From Chloroflexota bacterium (GTDB lineage Bacteria > Chloroflexota > Dehalococcoidia > JACVQG01 > JAHKAY01): 41,014 nt of DNA. The DNA is taken from the NCBI GenBank assembly GCA_018825785.1, contig JAHKAY010000009.1:1-41014 (forward strand), written 5' to 3'. The position numbers were made by a program, and so were the translations under genes. Below the pieces are notes generated by a model. That model had not been told where the DNA came from. It saw only the letters and a program-made list of their open reading frames with translations, and searched no databases. Position 1 is the stretch's first letter. The number at the start of each line of letters is the position of its first letter. Positions 28,274-36,332 of this stretch are shown piece by piece.

Positions 28274-29785
28274 TCAGCAGGCGGGGGTGCGGGGGCGGTA
28301 CTGGAGGGCTTCGGCCAGGTGAGAGGGGCCGATGGTCTCGGAGCCGCAGAGGTCGGCGATGGTACGGGCCAGCTTCAGGACCCGGTGGAAGGCCCGTGCG
28401 GACAATGATAGCTGCTTCATGGCCGAGATGAGGAGGGCCTGGGCCCCGGGCTCCAGGGGGCAGAACTGCCTGACCTCGGCGGGGCGCATCTCGGCGTTGG
28501 TCAGGATGCTGTTCCCCTGGAAGCGCCCCTTCTCTATCTCCCGGGCCGCTTTCACCCGCTCTCTTACCCTTTCCGACATCTCCCCCGCCCGGTCATCGAT
28601 GAGCTTCTCGTATTCCACCCTCGGCACCTGGACGAAGATATCAATCCTGTCCAGGAGGGGGCCAGAGATGCGCCTCTGGTACCGGGAGACAAGGGAGGGG
28701 GGGCAGGTGCAGGGCTTTTTGGGGTCGCCGAAGTAGCCGCAGGGGCAGGGGTTCATGGCCGCCACCAGCATGAAGTTGGCGGGGAAGGTGAAGGTCCCCT
28801 GGACCCGGCTTACGGTTACTGTTTTATCCTCCAGGGGCTGTCGCAGGGCCTCCAATAAATGCCCGAACTCGGGCAGCTCGTCCAGGAAGAGGACCCCCCG
28901 GTGGGCCAGGCTTATCTCCCCCGGGTGGGGCCAGCGCCCCCCGCCCACCAGGCCGGCCTCGGAGACGGTGTGGTGGGGGGAGCGGAAGGGCCTCTGCCGC
29001 AGGAGGGGGGAGCCCGGAGGCAGGAGGCCGCTGACGCTGTATATCCTGGTCACCTCCAGGGCCTCCCCTTTTGTCATAGATGGGAGGATGGAGGGGAGGG
29101 CTCGGGCCAGAAAGGTCTTGCCTGAGCCGGGTGGCCCCATCATGACCAGGTTGTGCCCCCCCGCCGCCGCCACCTCCAGGGCCCTCTTGGCGTGCTCCTG
29201 CCCCTTGATATGGGCCAGCTCCGCCGCCGGGGTGGGCACCATCCCTTCCTCTGCCGGTGGGGCGGGGGGGATAGGTTTCTCCCCCCTCAGATGGGCCACC
29301 AGGGCAGAAAGGCTTTCCACCGGCACTATCTCCAGCCCCTCCACCAGGGTGGCTTCGGCGGCATCGACGGCGGGGACATAGGCAGCCTTGAAGCCCTTCT
29401 CCAGGGCCAGGGCCACCATGGGGAGGATGCCCGGGGTATGCCTCAGGCCCCCGTCCAGAGAAAGCTCCCCCAGAAAGACGGCTTGGGAGACATCGGCCTC
29501 TAGCTGTTCCGAGGCCAGGAGGACCCCCAGGGCCATAGGCAGGTCATAGGCGGGGCCTTCCTTGCGGAGGTCGGCGGGGGCCAGGTTGATGGTAATACGC
29601 CGGTTGGGGAAGATGCATCCGGAGTTCCTGATAGCCGCCCGCACCCTCTCCCTGGCCTCCTGGACCGGGGTATCCGGCAGGCCCACGATGGTGAAGGAGG
29701 GGAGGCCAGGTGATATATCCACCTCCGCCTCCACCAGCACCCCCTCCAGCCCCGCCACAGCACAGGTGAGAACCTTGGCCAGCAT
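28274..29785 (-). CDS. comM: ComM/YifB family Mg-chelatase-like AAA+ ATPase
   Basis: A 503-aa protein. The N-terminal LonC-like domain (ISPGLPSFTIVGLPDTPVQE, IITNLAPADLRKEG-like segment) is followed by the AAA+ core with Walker A MMGPPGSGKTFLARAL (~residues 215-230) and Walker B GVLFLDELPEF. A YFGDPKKPCTC cysteine cluster and a C-terminal Mg-chelatase-like domain follow. ComM is a hexameric branch-migration helicase that helps integrate DNA during natural transformation. It lies next to the pilus/competence operon, which fits. The -10 ends 9 nt before the ATG. Confidence 0.95.
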   Translation of the reverse strand: MLAKVLTCAVAGLEGVLVEAEVDISPGLPSFTIVGLPDTPVQEARERVRAAIRNSGCIFPNRRITINLAPADLRKEGPAYDLPMALGVLLASEQLEADVSQAVFLGELSLDGGLRHTPGILPMVALALEKGFKAAYVPAVDAAEATLVEGLEIVPVESLSALVAHLRGEKPIPPAPPAEEGMVPTPAAELAHIKGQEHAKRALEVAAAGGHNLVMMGPPGSGKTFLARALPSILPSMTKGEALEVTRIYSVSGLLPPGSPLLRQRPFRSPHHTVSEAGLVGGGRWPHPGEISLAHRGVLFLDELPEFGHLLEALRQPLEDKTVTVSRVQGTFTFPANFMLVAAMNPCPCGYFGDPKKPCTCPPSLVSRYQRRISGPLLDRIDIFVQVPRVEYEKLIDDRAGEMSERVRERVKAAREIEKGRFQGNSILTNAEMRPAEVRQFCPLEPGAQALLISAMKQLSLSARAFHRVLKLARTIADLCGSETIGPSHLAEALQYRPRTPAC

Positions 29786-29888: not shown

Positions 29889-30629
29889 TCACCCCAGAAG
29901 GCGCAGGTAGAGGTCAAGGAGGCCCTGGCCCCAGAGCAGGGTCACGAAGGAGCCCCCCACCAGGAAGGGGCCGAAGGGTATGGCGGCCTTTCTCCCTTTG
30001 AGCCTGAGGGCCAGGAGAACGGAGGCCAGCAGCCCCCCGCTGACAACGGCCACTAGAATAGCCACAAGGACCAGGGGCCAGCCGTTAATCAGGCCCAGGA
30101 GGCCAGCCAGTTTCACATCCCCAAGTCCCATCCCCCCCCGGGCCAGGAAATATATGGCCAGGAAGAGGCCAAACCCCACCCCACCCCCCACCAGGGCAGG
30201 AATGGCGCGGCCCTCAAGCAGGGCCAGGCCCAGGGCCAGGGCCATCCCCGGGAAGACTATCACATCGGGGATAATGCCCTCCCTCAGGTCTATGAAGAAG
30301 ATAGGGACAAAGAGGGCCACATATACCAGGGAGGAGAAAAGCTCCAGGCCGGGCCCCAGCCTCCACCCCAGGAAAGCGAAAAGCCCCCCCGTCAGCAGTT
30401 CCACCAGAGGGAGACGCCAGGAAATTGGCACACCGCAGAACCGGCATTTCCCCCGAAGCAGAACGTAGCTCAGGACCGGCAGCAGGTCCCGCGTGGAAAG
30501 CCCCCGCCCGCAGGCCTCGCAGCGGGAAGAGGGGAAGAGAAGGGACTCCCCCCGGGGCAGGCGGTCAATGACCACATTGAGGAAGCTGCCCACCACCAGG
30601 CCCACCAGGCCCAGGAAGAGAGCCAGCAT
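29889..30629 (-). CDS. pilD: Prepilin peptidase / N-methyltransferase
   Basis: A 246-aa integral membrane aspartic protease that cleaves type IV prepilin leader peptides and methylates the new N-terminus. The two zinc-type CxxC pairs (SRCEACGRGL and KCRFCGVPISW) are present. The catalytic aspartates lie in FIDLREGIIPD and in GMGLGDVKLAGL (GxGD). About eight membrane helices. The start overlaps the pilM stop (TAATG). Last gene of the pilus operon. Confidence 0.95.
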   Translation of the reverse strand: MLALFLGLVGLVVGSFLNVVIDRLPRGESLLFPSSRCEACGRGLSTRDLLPVLSYVLLRGKCRFCGVPISWRLPLVELLTGGLFAFLGWRLGPGLELFSSLVYVALFVPIFFIDLREGIIPDVIVFPGMALALGLALLEGRAIPALVGGGVGFGLFLAIYFLARGGMGLGDVKLAGLLGLINGWPLVLVAILVAVVSGGLLASVLLALRLKGRKAAIPFGPFLVGGSFVTLLWGQGLLDLYLRLLG

Positions 30630-31552
30630 TATCCCTTGCCCAGGGGGCGGAGAAGAAGGCCGATGTTCACCATGAACAGGGCCAGGGAGAACTCGGGGTC
30701 CGGGGGCAGAGGCAGAGGGGCCTCCAGGGGAGCCAGAGAGTGGCCAGTGGCCGCCGCCAGGTCATCGGCCAGGCCCGGTAGCCCCGCCAGCCCCCCCGTG
30801 AGGTAAAGGGGCACATCCTCGGCAAGGGGCTCCCCGTAGGTCTCGGTGTAAAAGCTGATGCTCCTACCCACCTCCTCCATCACCCTGGCCGAGACTTGCT
30901 CCGAGGGAAGGGGCTCATCCCCCAGGAAAACACTCCTCGTCAGGGCAGGAAAGCCCTCCCTGACCACCGCCATCTCCACCGAGTTGCTCTCCACGTGGGC
31001 CAGGATGGCCTCCCGGCGCCTCGTACAGCGGGCCAGGGCCAGTGCCTTCAGGTCCAGCCTCTCCAGCTTCAGCCCCCCCCTGTCAAACACCGCCAGGAGG
31101 GCGTGGAGGGGCTCCCGCGGACAGGCCGCCACAAAGACCCGCCGGACTCCCCTTCCGGGGAGTACCCGCCAGAAAAGGTAATGGCTTTCCGGAGAGACCG
31201 CCATCTGCCGGCGGGTCTCCCTGACCACTACCCCCTCCACGTCCAACCCCCGAAAAGCAGGCAGGCTCAGGGTGCGGGTGAGGGCCGCCAGGCCTGGGAA
31301 GGAACAGAAAAGGCGGGCGGGGAGAAGGGAACGGGAGCGGAGGGTGGATATCACCATCTCCCTCAGCCCCTCGGCGTCCGCCACGTATCCATTGCGCAGG
31401 AAACGGGGGGCAAAAGGTATGGAACCCCAGTACTCAGGGGAGCCACCCCAGAAGCTGAGGAGCCTCAGGCTGTTCCCCTCCAGGCTCACCGCCAGAAGGC
31501 GCCGCTGAAAAAGGCGAGGGGCCCCCTTCAGCCTCTTCTCCTGGGCCGTCAT
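30629..31552 (-). CDS. pilM: PilM-like actin-fold pilus assembly protein
   Basis: A 307-aa cytoplasmic protein with an actin/FtsA-type fold: RLLAVSLEGNSLRLLSFW, EAILAHVESNSVEMAVVREG, the RSISFYTETYG region and LYLTGGLAGLPGLAD. It is diverged from well-studied PilM but is placed directly beside pilN and pilO, as in other type IV pilus loci. PilM binds the cytoplasmic tail of PilN (INLLP motif) and links the inner-membrane alignment complex to the PilB motor. ATGA overlap with pilO. Confidence 0.85.
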   Translation of the reverse strand: MTAQEKRLKGAPRLFQRRLLAVSLEGNSLRLLSFWGGSPEYWGSIPFAPRFLRNGYVADAEGLREMVISTLRSRSLLPARLFCSFPGLAALTRTLSLPAFRGLDVEGVVVRETRRQMAVSPESHYLFWRVLPGRGVRRVFVAACPREPLHALLAVFDRGGLKLERLDLKALALARCTRRREAILAHVESNSVEMAVVREGFPALTRSVFLGDEPLPSEQVSARVMEEVGRSISFYTETYGEPLAEDVPLYLTGGLAGLPGLADDLAAATGHSLAPLEAPLPLPPDPEFSLALFMVNIGLLLRPLGKG

Positions 31553-32091
31553 GGCCCTTCCCCCTGGAGCAGGAGAACGATGTCAAACTCGGCCTCCCAG
31601 CCCGTTTCGCCCTGGCTGAGGCTGATGTTGTCCAGGAAGAGGGTAGGAAAGGCCCCGGCCGCCAACCCTTTCATATAGGAGACCAGGGAGGAAAAGGGGC
31701 CGCTAAAGGCGGCATGGGAGATGAGAGCCCTGTACTCCCGGCCGCCCACCTTCTCCTTCCCCTGCTCCCCCAGCGCAATTTCGCGCACTGTCAGCTGGTC
31801 GGCGGTCAGAATCAGCTCCTCCAGCCTGGGGCCAGGGTCTTCTTCGGGGAAGGGGACCTTCTCCAGAGCGGCCCGGACCTCCCCCAGCCGCCGGTTGAGC
31901 TCAACCACGTCCATGTCCACCCGCAGCCTCTCCACCAGGCGGGCCTTTTCGGCGATGGCCACTTCCACCGCCTTCTCCTGCGCCTGGGCCCGGTTCCAGA
32001 AAACGGCCAGGGAGAGGTCGGAGAGAAGAAAAAGGACCGCCGCCAGGAGGAAAAGCTTCTCCAGCCAGGAAAGCCTCTTCAGGGCTTTCAC
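31549..32091 (-). CDS. pilO: PilO-like pilus alignment protein
   Basis: A 180-aa bitopic membrane protein: one N-terminal helix (LEKLFLLAAVLFLLSDLSLA), a coiled-coil stretch (EVAIAEKARLVERLRVDMDV) and a ferredoxin-like C-terminal domain (FSGPFSSLVSYMKGLA). Sequence identity to PilO is low; the call rests on topology, size and position between pilN and pilM. It would heterodimerise with PilN outside the membrane. Confidence 0.8.
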   Translation of the reverse strand: MKALKRLSWLEKLFLLAAVLFLLSDLSLAVFWNRAQAQEKAVEVAIAEKARLVERLRVDMDVVELNRRLGEVRAALEKVPFPEEDPGPRLEELILTADQLTVREIALGEQGKEKVGGREYRALISHAAFSGPFSSLVSYMKGLAAGAFPTLFLDNISLSQGETGWEAEFDIVLLLQGEGP

Positions 32092-32654
32092 TGCGCTCCT
32101 CCCCGGGGCTTGAGAAGCAGGGTGAACTCCACCCCCTTGTCGGTCTCCCGATAGTTGAACCTGATGTTGGAGAAGAGCCCCCCCAGCGACAGCTGCCGCA
32201 CATGGAAAACTACCTGCTGGGCGTCTGTGGCCGTGCCCGTGGCCTCCAGGTCAGGGTCCTTCTGGACGAAGGAAAGGAAGGCCATCCCGGAGGGTAGCCT
32301 GGCGACGAGGGCCTCAAGCACCAGGGGCCAGTCCACCCTTTCTTGCTGGAGGGTCTTGTAGTCCTCCTCCAGCTCCTTGAGCTTCTTCCCCTCCGTTTCC
32401 AGCCGGGAGCGGAGTTCCGAGGCGGTGGGCTCATTGACCAGGAGCCCCTTCTCCTCCCCCACCAAGATCTCCAGCCTGGCCTGCCGGGAAGCAAGGGCTT
32501 CCGCACTCCGGGCCCGGGCGTCAAGGAGAGGGAAAAGGAGGGCCAGGAGGAGGAGGGCGGCCAGAGCCACCACCAGCCCCGCCCAGGAAAAGAGGGGCCG
32601 CGGGCGGTAGTCCGGCGGGAGAAGATTCATATCCAGCAAAGGCCCAGCTTTCAT
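32088..32654 (-). CDS. pilN: PilN-like pilus assembly protein
   Basis: A 188-aa bitopic protein. The cytoplasmic N-terminus MNLLPPDYRPRP corresponds to the INLLP motif that docks into PilM. One membrane helix follows (WAGLVVALAALLLLALLFPL), then a coiled coil (ELRSRLETEGKKLKELEEDY) and a compact C-terminal domain (LVARLPSGMAFLSFVQKD). Stop/start overlaps on both sides (ATGA) couple it to pilC and pilO. Confidence 0.87.
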   Translation of the reverse strand: MKAGPLLDMNLLPPDYRPRPLFSWAGLVVALAALLLLALLFPLLDARARSAEALASRQARLEILVGEEKGLLVNEPTASELRSRLETEGKKLKELEEDYKTLQQERVDWPLVLEALVARLPSGMAFLSFVQKDPDLEATGTATDAQQVVFHVRQLSLGGLFSNIRFNYRETDKGVEFTLLLKPRGGAQ

Positions 32655-33871
32655 CTTATCTGGCGGACAAGGCCGTAGAGGGGGCTGAGGATAGAGACGG
32701 CAATAAAGGCCACCACCCCCCCCACCAGGATGATAAGGGCCGGCTCCAGCATCCCCACCAGGCGGGCGATGGCCCGCCCTGCCTCCTCGTCATAGCTTGT
32801 GACAACGGTATCCAGGTTAGCCTCCAGCTGGCCGGTGTGCTCCCCGATGCTCACCAGCTGGCCCACCAGAGGCGGGAAGAGGGGCCGGGAGGCCAGGGCC
32901 TGGGAAAGGAGCTTCCCCTGCACCACATCCGCCCTCACCCCTGTCAGGACCTCCCTGAAGGGGGCATTCTCCGTGGTCTGGACCAGAAGGTTCAGGCCCT
33001 CGGTGAGCGTGACCCCCGCCTTGAGAAGGAGGGAAAGGGTGCGGCAGAAGCGGGCTACCTGGGAGAAGATAATGGCCCGGCGCACCTGGGGGACCCGGAG
33101 TAGGAAACGGTCCCAGCGGGCCCTCCCCCGCGGGCTGCGGATATACCAGGTCCCCCCCACCACCCCCAGGGCCAGGGCCACCATCACCAGCCCCCCCCGC
33201 TCCCGGAGAAAGCCTGCTATCGCCACGAGGGCCCGGGTGGAGAGGGGCAGGCTGCCCCCCCACTCCCGCAGCAGGGCCCTCATGGAAGGGAGAACAAAGG
33301 TAACCAGGATGACCACCACCCCCACGGCCAGGACGGCGATGAAGGCGGGATAGCCCAGGGCCCCCCTCACCCTGATGGCAGTCTCCCTCTCCCTTTCCAG
33401 GTGGACCTCCAGTTGCCTCAGCACCAGAGGGAGACTACCTATCTCCTCCCCCACGTGGATAAGACGGAGGTAGAGGGTAGAGAATACCTGGGGATGGCGG
33501 GCCAGGGCCTGGGAGAAGGAATCCCCCCGGCTAATATCCTCAATGACCCGGTTAAGCACCCGGCCGAAGGGACCAGAGGTCTGGGCCTGGAGCATCTTCA
33601 GGGAGGGGACCTCGCTTATGCCCGCGCCGAGGAGGTTGGCCAGGCTCCGGGTGAAGTGGATAATCTCCCCCCTCCTCACCCCAAAGAGTGTGGGGGACAG
33701 GGACTCCAGATGCAGGCCCCCGCCGTCTTTCTTGAGTCTGCTGAGGCGTAGTATGGTGAGGCCCGCTTGCCACAGGGCCTCCTCCGCCTCCTTTTCCGTC
33801 TCCGCCTCCAGCTCCCCCGCCCTCATCTCCCCCTGGGGCGTGGATGCCAGATACTTATATCTCATAGCCAA
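32651..33871 (-). CDS. pilC: Type IV pilus inner-membrane platform protein
   Basis: A 406-aa GspF/PilC family protein. Two repeated GspF domains are visible: FTRSLANLLGAGISEVPSLK with GDSFSQALARHPQVFSTLYL, and FCRTLSLLLKAGVTLTEGLN with LLSQALASRPLFPPLVGQLV. Three membrane helices are present (GYPAFIAVLAVGVVVILVTF; RGGLVMVALALGVVGGTWYI; ALIILVGGVVAFIAVSIL). It is the rotor or platform driven by PilB. Its start lies 23 nt after the pilB stop. Confidence 0.95.
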   Translation of the reverse strand: MAMRYKYLASTPQGEMRAGELEAETEKEAEEALWQAGLTILRLSRLKKDGGGLHLESLSPTLFGVRRGEIIHFTRSLANLLGAGISEVPSLKMLQAQTSGPFGRVLNRVIEDISRGDSFSQALARHPQVFSTLYLRLIHVGEEIGSLPLVLRQLEVHLERERETAIRVRGALGYPAFIAVLAVGVVVILVTFVLPSMRALLREWGGSLPLSTRALVAIAGFLRERGGLVMVALALGVVGGTWYIRSPRGRARWDRFLLRVPQVRRAIIFSQVARFCRTLSLLLKAGVTLTEGLNLLVQTTENAPFREVLTGVRADVVQGKLLSQALASRPLFPPLVGQLVSIGEHTGQLEANLDTVVTSYDEEAGRAIARLVGMLEPALIILVGGVVAFIAVSILSPLYGLVRQIR

Positions 33872-33894: not shown

Positions 33895-35610
33895 CTATCC
33901 GATGAGGAAGACGTGGCGGAGGACCTCGCTGGGTGTCGTGACGCCATCCCTGGCCTTGAGCATCCCATCCCGGCGCAGGGTGACCATCCCCTCCTTTACC
34001 GCCTGAGCCTTTATCTCCATTGCCGGGGCCTGCCGGTTCACCAGCTGGCGGATGGGGTCGGTGAGGGGCAGCATCTCAAAGACCCCCGTCCTTCCCAGGT
34101 AGCCCGTCCGGGAGCAGAAGTTGCAGCCCCGGCCCATGTAGAAGTCCGTCCTCACCTCCTGCATCTCCTGCTGGTAGGCCGCCGCATCGGCGGGGCTCAC
34201 CTTCTCCATGTTGCGACAGTAGGGACAGACCTTCCTCACCAGCCGCTGGGAGAGGGAACCGATGACCGCCGAGGTGACGAGGAAGGGCTCCACCCCCAGG
34301 TCAATAAGGCGGATGATGGCCGCCACGGCATCGTTGGCGTGGATGGAGGTAAGCACCAGGTGGCCGGTGAGGGCCGCCTGGACGGCCACAGTGGCTGTCT
34401 CCTTGTCCCTTATCTCCCCCACCAGTATGACATCGGGGTCAAGGCGCATGATGGCCCTGAGGCCGGCGGCAAAGGTTATCTCCGCCTGCCGGTTCACCTG
34501 TATCTGGTTGATACGTTTGAAATGGTATTCAATGGGGTCCTCAATCGTCATGACATTGCGTTCCTGGGGATTTAGCTCCCCGATGGAGGCATAGAGGGTG
34601 GTGGTCTTACCTGAGCCCGTGGGCCCGCTGACCAGCACCATGCCGAAAGGGGAGTCCAGGATGCGCCGGTGGCCCTCCTGCACGCCAGTCGCCATGCCGA
34701 CCTGGGAGAGCTGGAGGAGGCCCAGGGACTTGTCCAGCACCCGGAGAACCGCCATCTCCCCGTGGGCCGTCTCCGCCGTGGCCACCCGGAAGTCAATGGG
34801 CCGCTCAGCGATGGCGGCGGAGAACTGGCCGTCCTGGGGACGGCGCCTTTCAGCGATGTTCATGTTGGCCATGACCTTTATCCGGGAGATGAGGGCAGAA
34901 TGGATCCCCATTGGGAGGGTGGCAACCTGATGGAGGATACCATCAATGCGGTAGCGCACCCGGATGCCGTCCTCCTCGGGCTCGATATGCACATCCGAGG
35001 CCCGGTCCTTCACCGCCTGGGTCAATATCATGTCCACAGCCCGCACGATGGGGGCCTGGGCAATGGCCTCCCCCACCAGGCCCGGGTCTGACGCCGCCAC
35101 CCGGGTGCCCGCCGGGGCCTGGGGCTGGGCGCCAACCGCCTGGCTTATCTCCTGCTCAATCTTCTGGGCCAGCCGGTAGTGGGTGCGGATGGCATCCTCC
35201 AGGCCCCCGTGGAGGGGGATGACCACCCGGAGGCGCTTCCTTGAGAGGGCCGCCAGGGTATCCACGGTGGCCACATCGGAGGGGTCTTCCATGGCCACGG
35301 TGAGGACATCCCCCTCCACCTTAAGGGGCAGTACCCGATGCTCCCTGGCCACCTCCTCGGGGACAAGGGCAACAGCCTCGGCCTCAACCTCATACTGGCG
35401 CAGGTCTACTACGGGGACATTGAACTGAAAGGAGAGGACAGTAGCCAGTGTCTCAGCGCTGATGATGTTGTCCTGGAGGAGGACCTCCACCAGCTTGCGG
35501 CCCTGGCCCCGGGCTTTCTCCTGGGCCTTGGCCAGCTCCTGGGGCTTGAGGAAAGCCCCCTCCACCAAGACCTGGCCGATGTCCTTCCTGGTCTTGGCAC
35601 GCTCCATCAT
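33895..35610 (-). CDS. pilB: Type IV pilus assembly ATPase
   Basis: A 571-aa GspE/PilB motor ATPase. N-terminal GspEII domain (IGQVLVEGAFLKPQELAKAQ; DVLTVAMEDPSDVATVDTLA), Walker A VSGPTGSGKTTTLYA, Asp box TIEDPIEYHFKRINQIQVN, Walker B RLDPDVILVGEIRDKETA, His box LVLTSIHANDAVAAI, and the zinc-binding CPYC...CNFC tetracysteine. The ATG at 35610 is chosen because it overlaps the stop of the 66-aa gene (ATGA); 14 extra codons lie upstream in frame. Confidence 0.95.
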   Translation of the reverse strand: MMERAKTRKDIGQVLVEGAFLKPQELAKAQEKARGQGRKLVEVLLQDNIISAETLATVLSFQFNVPVVDLRQYEVEAEAVALVPEEVAREHRVLPLKVEGDVLTVAMEDPSDVATVDTLAALSRKRLRVVIPLHGGLEDAIRTHYRLAQKIEQEISQAVGAQPQAPAGTRVAASDPGLVGEAIAQAPIVRAVDMILTQAVKDRASDVHIEPEEDGIRVRYRIDGILHQVATLPMGIHSALISRIKVMANMNIAERRRPQDGQFSAAIAERPIDFRVATAETAHGEMAVLRVLDKSLGLLQLSQVGMATGVQEGHRRILDSPFGMVLVSGPTGSGKTTTLYASIGELNPQERNVMTIEDPIEYHFKRINQIQVNRQAEITFAAGLRAIMRLDPDVILVGEIRDKETATVAVQAALTGHLVLTSIHANDAVAAIIRLIDLGVEPFLVTSAVIGSLSQRLVRKVCPYCRNMEKVSPADAAAYQQEMQEVRTDFYMGRGCNFCSRTGYLGRTGVFEMLPLTDPIRQLVNRQAPAMEIKAQAVKEGMVTLRRDGMLKARDGVTTPSEVLRHVFLIG

Positions 35611-35807
35611 TTCAGCCCTGTCTGGGTCACCTTCACCCCCCACAGCCACCACACCTTATCCCCATCCCTCACCTCAGCGGAGAAGCCCTCCACCTCAGCC
35701 GGTTCCACCGAGGCGCGGAAGACCCAGTCCCCCAGCACCATGTTCTCCTTAAGGGGATAGCCCATGCGGAGCCACGTCTCCAACTTGGAAAGCTCGGGGT
35801 CCATCAT
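35607..35807 (-). CDS. 66-aa hypothetical protein in the pilus operon
   Basis: A small protein beginning MMDPELSKLETWLRMGYPLK and ending WWLWGVKVTQTGLK. No membrane helix; the mixed beta pattern (VLGDWVFRASVEPAEVEGFS) suggests a small beta-barrel or SH3-like fold, which is speculative. Both ends overlap neighbours by ATGA (HTH gene upstream, pilB downstream), which strongly supports that it is translated. Family not recognised. Confidence 0.65.
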   Translation of the reverse strand: MMDPELSKLETWLRMGYPLKENMVLGDWVFRASVEPAEVEGFSAEVRDGDKVWWLWGVKVTQTGLK

Positions 35808-36034
35808 CGCTTCTCCGTCCTGGTCTCCAGAGTCTCCCCCGGGGCCAGGGCCACCTTCTTCAGGTCCACCCCGTAGCGGAGCATCCAGTACCAGACGGTG
35901 CTGCGGCTCACCCCCAGCGCCTCTGCCATCCGGGGCAACCCCATCTCGTTGTACATCCGGGGCAAAAGCTTCTCCAGCGGCTGGTTGTACCGCTCCTCCA
36001 CCCCTCTCATCAGCTTTGTCCTCCTCATCGCCAT
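35804..36034 (-). CDS. Helix-turn-helix regulator at the head of the pilus operon
   Basis: A 76-aa protein. The HTH is MAEALGVSRSTVWYWMLRYG within PLEKLLPRMYNEMGLPRM...; there is no ligand domain. ATG 36034 has a GGGGGG ribosome run at 7 nt; a second ATG two codons on is also possible. It is the first gene of the pil operon and lies just downstream of a promoter overlapped by an inverted repeat, so autoregulation is likely. Whether it belongs to the pilus system or was captured cannot be told. Confidence 0.75.
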   Translation of the reverse strand: MAMRRTKLMRGVEERYNQPLEKLLPRMYNEMGLPRMAEALGVSRSTVWYWMLRYGVDLKKVALAPGETLETRTEKR

Positions 36035-36059
36035 GGCTCCACCCCCCTTTCAACGCAAT

Positions 36060-36109
36060 ATGCTAGCATAAATCTAATATTTTGTCAAGACCTTGTTTAA
36101 CATTAGATT
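36060..36109 (-). promoter_or_regulatory. pil operon promoter with overlapping operator-like inverted repeat
   Basis: Minus-strand TTGACA (36088-36083), 17-nt spacer, TAGCAT (36065-36060). The inverted repeat AATCTAAT/ATTAGATT (36102-36109 and 36071-36078) has one arm upstream of the -35 and the other inside the spacer, a classic repressor layout. The region is strongly AT-rich. Confidence 0.7.
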
Positions 36110-36218
36110 AACTAAACTCTAGAGTAGTATTGGAAGAATATTAGCATATGCTTAGAACACGGCCAATACATTAGTTCTGCCAATCAATAGTATAGCACTT
36201 CTGTTCTAGGATTTCCTC

Positions 36219-36257: not shown

Positions 36258-36332
36258 GCGGGTGTAACTCAGGGGTAGAGTGCCTGCTTCCCAAGCAGGC
36301 TGTCGTGGGTTCGAATCCCATCACCCGCTCCA
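36258..36332 (+). tRNA. tRNA-Gly (CCC)
   Basis: Acceptor stem GCGGGTG/CACCCGC with discriminator T and an encoded CCA end. Anticodon stem CCTGC/GCAGG around TTCCCAA (anticodon CCC). T-arm GTGGG-TTCGAAT-CCCAT. All four arms pair. Confidence 0.97.

Follow-up and report, generated by a model that had tools for sequence, protein, structure and literature searches.

The window, by which is meant the whole stretch of 41,014 nucleotides analysed here, carries on its minus strand a pil operon (Table 1). As the first-pass annotation had stated, the first gene of this operon encodes a helix-turn-helix (HTH) protein of 76 aa, P0001. Its stop codon overlaps the start codon of the second gene, whose 66-aa product (P0002) gave no Pfam match up to an E-value of 0.001. 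The product of the Mg-chelatase ChlI-family gene, which shares the strand of the operon, is presumably ComM/YifB. The operon is preceded by TTGACA and TAGCAT elements with a 17-bp spacer between them (36082-36066 on the minus strand), the latter 25 bp from the ATG of the HTH gene, and this is a good sigma-70 type promoter.

Table 1. Coordinates of the features at the HTH-pil locus of the window.
Feature	Position	Strand	Remarks
Phased array	36057-36155	-	nine successive 11-bp rows; -35, spacer and -10 fall in the last three
-35 element	36083-36088	-	TTGACA
-10 element	36060-36065	-	TAGCAT; extended -10, with TG at 36067-36068
Left arm of the inverted repeat	36071-36078	+	AATCTAAT; within the -35/-10 spacer; part of the array's spacer row
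Right arm of the inverted repeat	36102-36109	+	ATTAGATT; 13 bp upstream of the -35, within array row 36101-36111
AT-rich motif	36144-36151		GCATATGC; one copy
HTH protein P0001 (76 aa)	35804-36034	-	probably Fis-type helix-turn-helix; first gene of the operon
Protein P0002 (66 aa)	35607-35807	-	start codon overlaps the HTH stop codon
pilB-type ATPase	33895-35652	-	T2SSE, MshEN
pilC-type membrane protein	32651-33871	-	T2SSF
PilN-like, unassigned 180-aa, PilM-like and A24 prepilin peptidase genes	29889-32654	-	PilN and PilM matches below the Pfam cut-off
Mg-chelatase ChlI-family protein	28274-29785	-	Pfam assignment
tRNA-Gly gene	36258-36332		divergent from the HTH operon

The inverted repeat AATCTAAT/ATTAGATT, earlier described as spanning the promoter, was found at that place, and its arms can be lengthened to 11 nt with one mismatch (36071-36081/36099-36109). 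With a gap of 10-40 bp, the pair occurs at a single place in the 1.59-Mb draft genome. The surrounding region (36050-36190) has 32% GC and holds two inverted pairs with perfect arms of 8 bp and loops of 3-60; as many were obtained in 56 of 1000 dinucleotide shuffles of the same region, and the 11-nt form with one mismatch was equalled in 89 of 1000. An arm pair of 8 bp spanning the -35 was reached by 2% of 200 shuffles. The repeat does exist, but its inverted symmetry exceeds chance only marginally. The further AT-rich motif noted near 36145, GCATATGC, was also located. A search of the own genome with TTAATCTAAT, allowing one mismatch, gave 9 matches against 8 in the reversed control. Separately, a 12-bp perfect palindrome, TATGCTAGCATA, lies over the -10 element (36059-36070).

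An 11-bp array at the promoters of the HTH gene

The DNA from which the inverted repeat was picked can be written as nine successive 11-bp rows, CTAAGCATATG, CTAATATTCTT, CCAATACTACT, CTAGAGTTTAG, TTAATCTAATG, TTAAACAAGGT, CTTGACAAAAT, ATTAGATTTAT and GCTAGCATATT. The identity of this array with itself at a lag of 11 bp was 0.466 (p=0.0002 in 5000 dinucleotide shuffles, and p=0.004 when all lags of 7 to 20 are admitted), a level reached by 9 of the 8183 99-bp segments of the 41 kb, three of the nine lying at this array. Unlike the inverted repeat, the 11-bp periodicity therefore clearly beats chance. The arm centres are 31 bp apart, compared with the 33 bp of the array, so that the arms are not whole-period partners. 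The reported inverted repeat is a visible scrap of a longer, helix-phased row of repeats, and its arms are pieces of the rows.

Loci with the HTH gene were fetched from 57 of 60 further genomes, which with the window gave 58 HTH loci. A -35 matching at least five of six positions was required; this kept 44 loci and dropped 14, and removal of seven near-duplicates left 37 promoters, although some -35 assignments among the 44 are doubtful. Arms of at least 8 bp spanning the -35 were present in only three of the 44 orthologous promoters, and 28 lacked even 5 bp. The inverted repeat is thus ruled out as a conserved operator, its conservation upstream of orthologous operons being a check that the first-pass annotation had proposed, and a palindromic operator of a dimeric repressor, for which such conservation would be expected, finds no support at these promoters.

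Over the 66 bp preceding the -35 of the 37 non-redundant promoters, lag-11 self-identity was 0.385 against 0.280 in dinucleotide shuffles (z=11.5), with further peaks at lag 22 (z=5.4) and lag 33 (z=5.3); the adjacent lags 10 and 12 were also raised (z of 6.0 and 5.0). Taken individually, 18 of the 44 promoters (15 of the 37 non-redundant ones) had a lag-11 p<0.05, the window having p=0.002, and 26 of the 44 were non-significant. Along the promoters the lag-11 signal peaked from -44 to -1 and was near background beyond about -56 and, when averaged, downstream of the -35. The averaged unit was T-rich and then A-rich. In an unanchored test, the 300 bp before the HTH start were scanned for the 66-bp segment with the highest lag-11 identity; this maximum was at least 0.45 in 40 of the 58 loci (median 0.49).

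Two sets of control promoters, both with a higher GC content (45% and 59%, respectively) than the HTH promoters (35%), lacked this signal. The first consisted of 38 other intergenic promoter-like sites of the HTH loci, in which lag 11 gave z=0.7 (lag 10, 2.1; lag 12, 3.0). The second came from a search for strong promoters (TTGACA-17-TANAMT) that turned up 141 sites, spread over 11 of 12 HTH-bearing genomes; the 62 that were scored, from five genomes, had z=0.8 at lag 11 and z=-3.7 at lag 33. A lag-11 value of at least 0.42 was found in 12 of 37 HTH promoters and in one of these 62 controls, an ftsZ promoter with an array (genome G091, lag-11 0.45). For 12 genomes in which the HTH gene is absent, the corresponding sites were read by eye only. 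In a looser first control of 85 sites, the AT-rich part (n=43) had a lag-11 value of 0.331 against 0.284, 0.308, 0.284 and 0.289 at lags 8, 9, 10 and 12, an excess that was gone once sites inside long open frames were removed. The array as a general promoter feature is ruled out by the two control sets.

The array is not confined to the DNA upstream of the promoter elements. GT at -3/-2 before TTGACA was present in 15 of 37 HTH promoters against one of 38 controls, and it makes the -35 itself unit-like (GTMTTGACA compared with GTTTTGAAC); among cell-division sites, GT preceded TTGACA in 0 of 5 and 5 of 9. The spacers of the orthologous promoters keep the register of the upstream units, T being favoured at +9 to +11 and A at +13 to +15, and a register test across the -35 gave a moderate result (lag 22, z=2.8; lag 23, z=2.0). 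At two loci, L119 and L120, about eight consecutive 11-bp rows run through the promoter. The array therefore overlaps the -35, and its overlap with the spacer is shown more weakly.

The HTH protein and the neighbourhoods of its gene

When P0001 was compared with Pfam, all ten families listed, HTH_23, HTH_8 and HTH_50 among them, were below threshold, the Fis family (HTH_8, PF02954) scoring 18.3 bits with a curated cut-off of 22. No MerR-type Pfam family was listed up to an E-value of 0.1, no receiver-domain match was found in Pfam, and nothing in NCBIfam came near its cut-off. A structural model made from four sequences (mean pLDDT 80, residues 61-76 at low confidence) has three predicted helices, at 7-16, 20-40 and 44-53. 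Foldseek gave the model a weak likeness to the DNA-binding domains of Fis and NtrC4 (E-values of 0.6-1, the best 0.62), and VIA-align a similarly weak one to the Fis-type fold (Z 4.8, rmsd 2.8 over 45 residues). BldC was absent among the best 50 structural matches listed, and a longer list may hold one. A sequence search of solved structures returned Cgl2762 as the best match (E 0.0036, HTH part only), and PHROGs, for the protein of the window only, pointed weakly (E 2.8e-5) to a family of HNH endonucleases. P0001 is probably a Fis-type helix-turn-helix protein.

Relatives of the protein were detected in 21 of 100 near genomes, besides the own genome, and in 61 of 393 genomes of Dehalococcoidia, own included. 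In a phylum sample of 400 genomes, whose listing does not give the share of other classes, nine matched and all were Dehalococcoidia. Two IMG/VR viral contigs also carry a relative (L230, L231), one of them together with a frame taken to be thyX-like. A weak match of 31 residues in Acidobacteria (L033) lies inside a 330-residue frame, presumably that of a biotin-ligase-like protein, and was not counted as a relative. At L119 and L120 the HTH is part of longer open frames, of 270 and 282 aa, respectively. Within the samples searched, the HTH protein was found only in Dehalococcoidia and on the two viral contigs.

The element had been described as belonging to the pil operon, and this did not hold across loci. 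Genes for pilB lie behind the HTH gene in only four of the 58 loci (the window, L065, L069 and L072), and the recurrent neighbours elsewhere are genes taken to be larB-like (22 loci), dnaN (22), DedA-like (18) and prepilin-like (4), dnaN being backed by Pfam for one representative. The array was seen in varied contexts, with pilB downstream (the window and L065), with prepilin-like genes and in the larB-like/dnaN neighbourhood. For the other two pilB-linked loci, L069 had p=0.25 at lag 11 and 0.05 at lags 10-12, and L072, which had been dropped as it has no clear -35, showed no promoter array by eye and a best unanchored lag-11 value of 0.47.

Conversely, a search of 33 genomes located pilB at 17 places in 14 genomes, three of them HTH-linked. 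Eight upstream regions from the 14 places without HTH linkage were compared, which with 44-62% GC are richer than the HTH promoters. Promoter-like sites were present in four of the eight (five sites) and had lag-11 values of 0.16-0.27, without an array; in the unanchored test within 300 bp, the best values were 0.27-0.40, none of the eight reaching 0.45 compared with 40 of 58 HTH loci. On these eight regions, the array as an element of pil operons is ruled out. The array and its periodicity are demonstrated at promoters of the HTH gene, with which they are linked across gene contexts. This association fits a self-regulating HTH protein, without proving self-regulation.

Arrays at cell-division promoters and other sites

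The own genome has three ftsZ-like genes. Two ftsZ-linked promoters ending in TTTTAAGAAAGGTATTGACA were found, one (G000:C1:6317-6337, L151) about 1.2 kb before ftsA-ftsZ and the other (G000:C56:41327-41347, L152) about 0.4 kb before a second ftsZ, both with unit-like DNA up to TTGACA. Individually they were non-significant (p=0.09 and 0.16, respectively), and with up to three mismatches their common pattern occurs only at these two places of the genome. The sole promoter-like site within 3 kb of the third ftsZ (C54) has no array.

In other genomes, phased TYNRAA units lie directly upstream of TTGACA before mraZ (L243, L245), mraW (L247) and ftsZ (L167, L242), the mraZ and mraW products being assigned by Pfam and the two ftsZ partly by eye. 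L243 is from a genome in which no HTH gene was found; the other four are from HTH-bearing genomes. Twelve cell-division promoters of HTH-bearing genomes gave a lag-11 z of 6.3, a value inflated by the picking of many of them by pattern, and eight from genomes without the HTH gene gave 2.6, 2.5 and 2.8 at lags 10, 11 and 12, that is, an AT-tract signal with no sharp 11. At lag 33 the HTH promoters had z=5.3, against -0.9 for the twelve and 1.3 for the eight. In 30 genomes without the HTH gene, the anchored pattern with at most one mismatch had 26 matches (control 8), and in 30 with it 25 (control 7), which are equal frequencies. All five perfect matches were in HTH-bearing genomes. HTH-gene and cell-division arrays were no more alike within a genome than between genomes (p=0.46, eight genomes).

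A search for three TTNRAA units gave seven matches in the GC-rich own genome, one of them in the window, and none in the reversed control; as a regulon search in AT-rich genomes, it stayed at control level. At G000:C37:11820-11847 (L149), three 11-bp units lie upstream of a 225-aa protein with no Pfam match and a start taken to be twin-arginine-like, and no clear -35 is present. Four 11-bp units were found at G000:C52:2541-2579 (L150), flanked by what are presumably IS3-like transposase frames on one side and a DegT-like aminotransferase frame on the other. A perfect two-unit anchored array (G061:C17:32214-32242, L240) precedes a 351-aa protein with a DUF4358 match.

Possible readings of the array

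The reading tentatively preferred, with slightly less than an even chance of being right, is that copies of the HTH protein sit next to one another along the array and repress the promoter of the HTH gene itself, in the window together with the pil genes. The small protein would recognise degenerate, AT-rich units that average to a T-tract before an A-tract and are YTAA-like in the own genome, and the 11-bp repeat would place successive units on one face of the helix, allowing cooperative binding. Beginning at 36155, the rows pass through the upstream DNA and cover the -35, the spacer and the -10, so that their occupancy would exclude RNA polymerase. Such negative autoregulation of the HTH gene may also set the level of the overlapping downstream pil genes. 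The HTH protein as the binder, its cooperativity and repression as the sign of the effect are all inferred. The earlier proposal of an operator stands in part: conserved, site-like DNA does lie over a good sigma-70 promoter and is linked to the HTH gene, but it is a tandem 11-bp array and not an inverted repeat.

Among known regulators, Fis and NtrC4 come closest in fold to the HTH part, although P0001 is below the Pfam cut-off of the family and reaches a Z of only 4.8. Fis sites are single degenerate palindromes, unlike the tandem units found here. Another parallel would be BldC of Streptomyces, an HTH protein of small size that forms head-to-tail multimers on direct repeats at the whiI and smeA-sffA promoters (PMC5859096). 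Both proteins are some 70 aa long and consist of little more than the HTH, and in both cases the direct repeats are AT-rich and vary in number (PMC5859096). They differ in that BldC has a MerR-like winged HTH on 9-bp repeats (PMC5859096), whereas the units here are of 11 bp, the HTH is probably Fis-type, no wing is seen in the low-confidence C-terminus, and oligomerisation is putative. The spacing counts against autorepression by the HTH protein, as 11 bp is that of ArcA sites (PMC3798270) and BldC uses 9 bp (PMC5859096).

A wider proposal would be that the Dehalococcoidia-specific, Fis-type HTH protein represents a new class of filament-forming local regulators on 11-bp units, which autoregulates and sets ftsZ and mraZ through matching arrays. 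This is a long shot; if true, a filament-forming HTH protein would tie cell division to pilus or competence genes where its gene stands before pilB. Gene regulation in Dehalococcoidia is little charted, most members being uncultured, and no literature match was found for helix-turn-helix promoter operators in this class or for the Fis family on direct repeats in Chloroflexi. The array can be recognised from sequence alone, goes with a single small regulator gene across tens of genomes and is similar to DNA at cell-division promoters; as a cis-element it offers a concrete, testable point of entry.

The main alternative, clearly less probable but a serious one, is that the 11-bp repeats are read by a response regulator with housekeeping duties, of the OmpR/PhoB family (ArcA-, WalR- or MtrA-like), which would act as repressor or activator and have the HTH gene and the ftsZ/mraZ operons among its targets. 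In ArcA sites the direct repeats number two to five, and their centres are mostly 11 bp apart (PMC3798270); the array has direct repeats at this distance. The differences from ArcA/PhoB-type sites are that the linked protein is of 76 aa with no receiver match and that the unit is more degenerate. Phased units occur before ftsZ, mraZ and mraW with or without the HTH gene, and a single factor would account for both sets of arrays; it is because anchored-pattern matches are equally frequent in both groups of genomes that this explanation was kept. The arrays of one genome are, however, no more alike than those of different genomes, and those of the HTH gene are longer, as the lag-33 values indicate, and enter the spacer, all of which argues against a shared regulator.

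It is unlikely that the array is an extended UP element, on whose phased A/T tracts the alpha-CTDs of RNA polymerase would strengthen the promoter. UP elements are not known to extend beyond the DNA upstream of the -35, alpha-CTD is not known to bind in the -35/-10 spacer, and the E. coli consensus consists of A/T tracts. Here the period continues through the -35, with units in register in the spacer, a result of moderate strength that includes the rows of L119 and L120; the array running into the spacer and core promoter favours a repressor over a pure UP element. The long arrays also have G and C in their units, unlike those A/T tracts, and other strong promoters lack the 11-bp period. On the other side, the cell-division promoters show mainly near units, and the A-rich columns at -8 to -5 before TTGACA correspond to about -43 to -40, close to the adenines at -41 to -43 that matter for the activity of the proximal subsite of rrnB P1 (PMC4390567).

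Phased A/T tracts acting through intrinsic curvature or a general nucleoid protein, with no specific protein involved, would agree with an average unit of T-tract then A-tract every 11 bp, but this is quite improbable, as rows CTAAGCATATG, CCAATACTACT and CTAGAGTTTAG of the window are poor in A-tracts and the controls lack the period. Least probable is the original model, in which an HTH dimer binds AATCTAAT/ATTAGATT and represses: the pair is unique in the genome and arms of 11 bp and 9 bp span the -35 at L074 and L073, respectively, but 41 of 44 orthologous promoters have no such arm of at least 8 bp, the arm spacing is off the period of the array, and the repeat exceeds chance only marginally. 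The case illustrates how a degenerate tandem array can give rise to a short inverted repeat that catches the eye.
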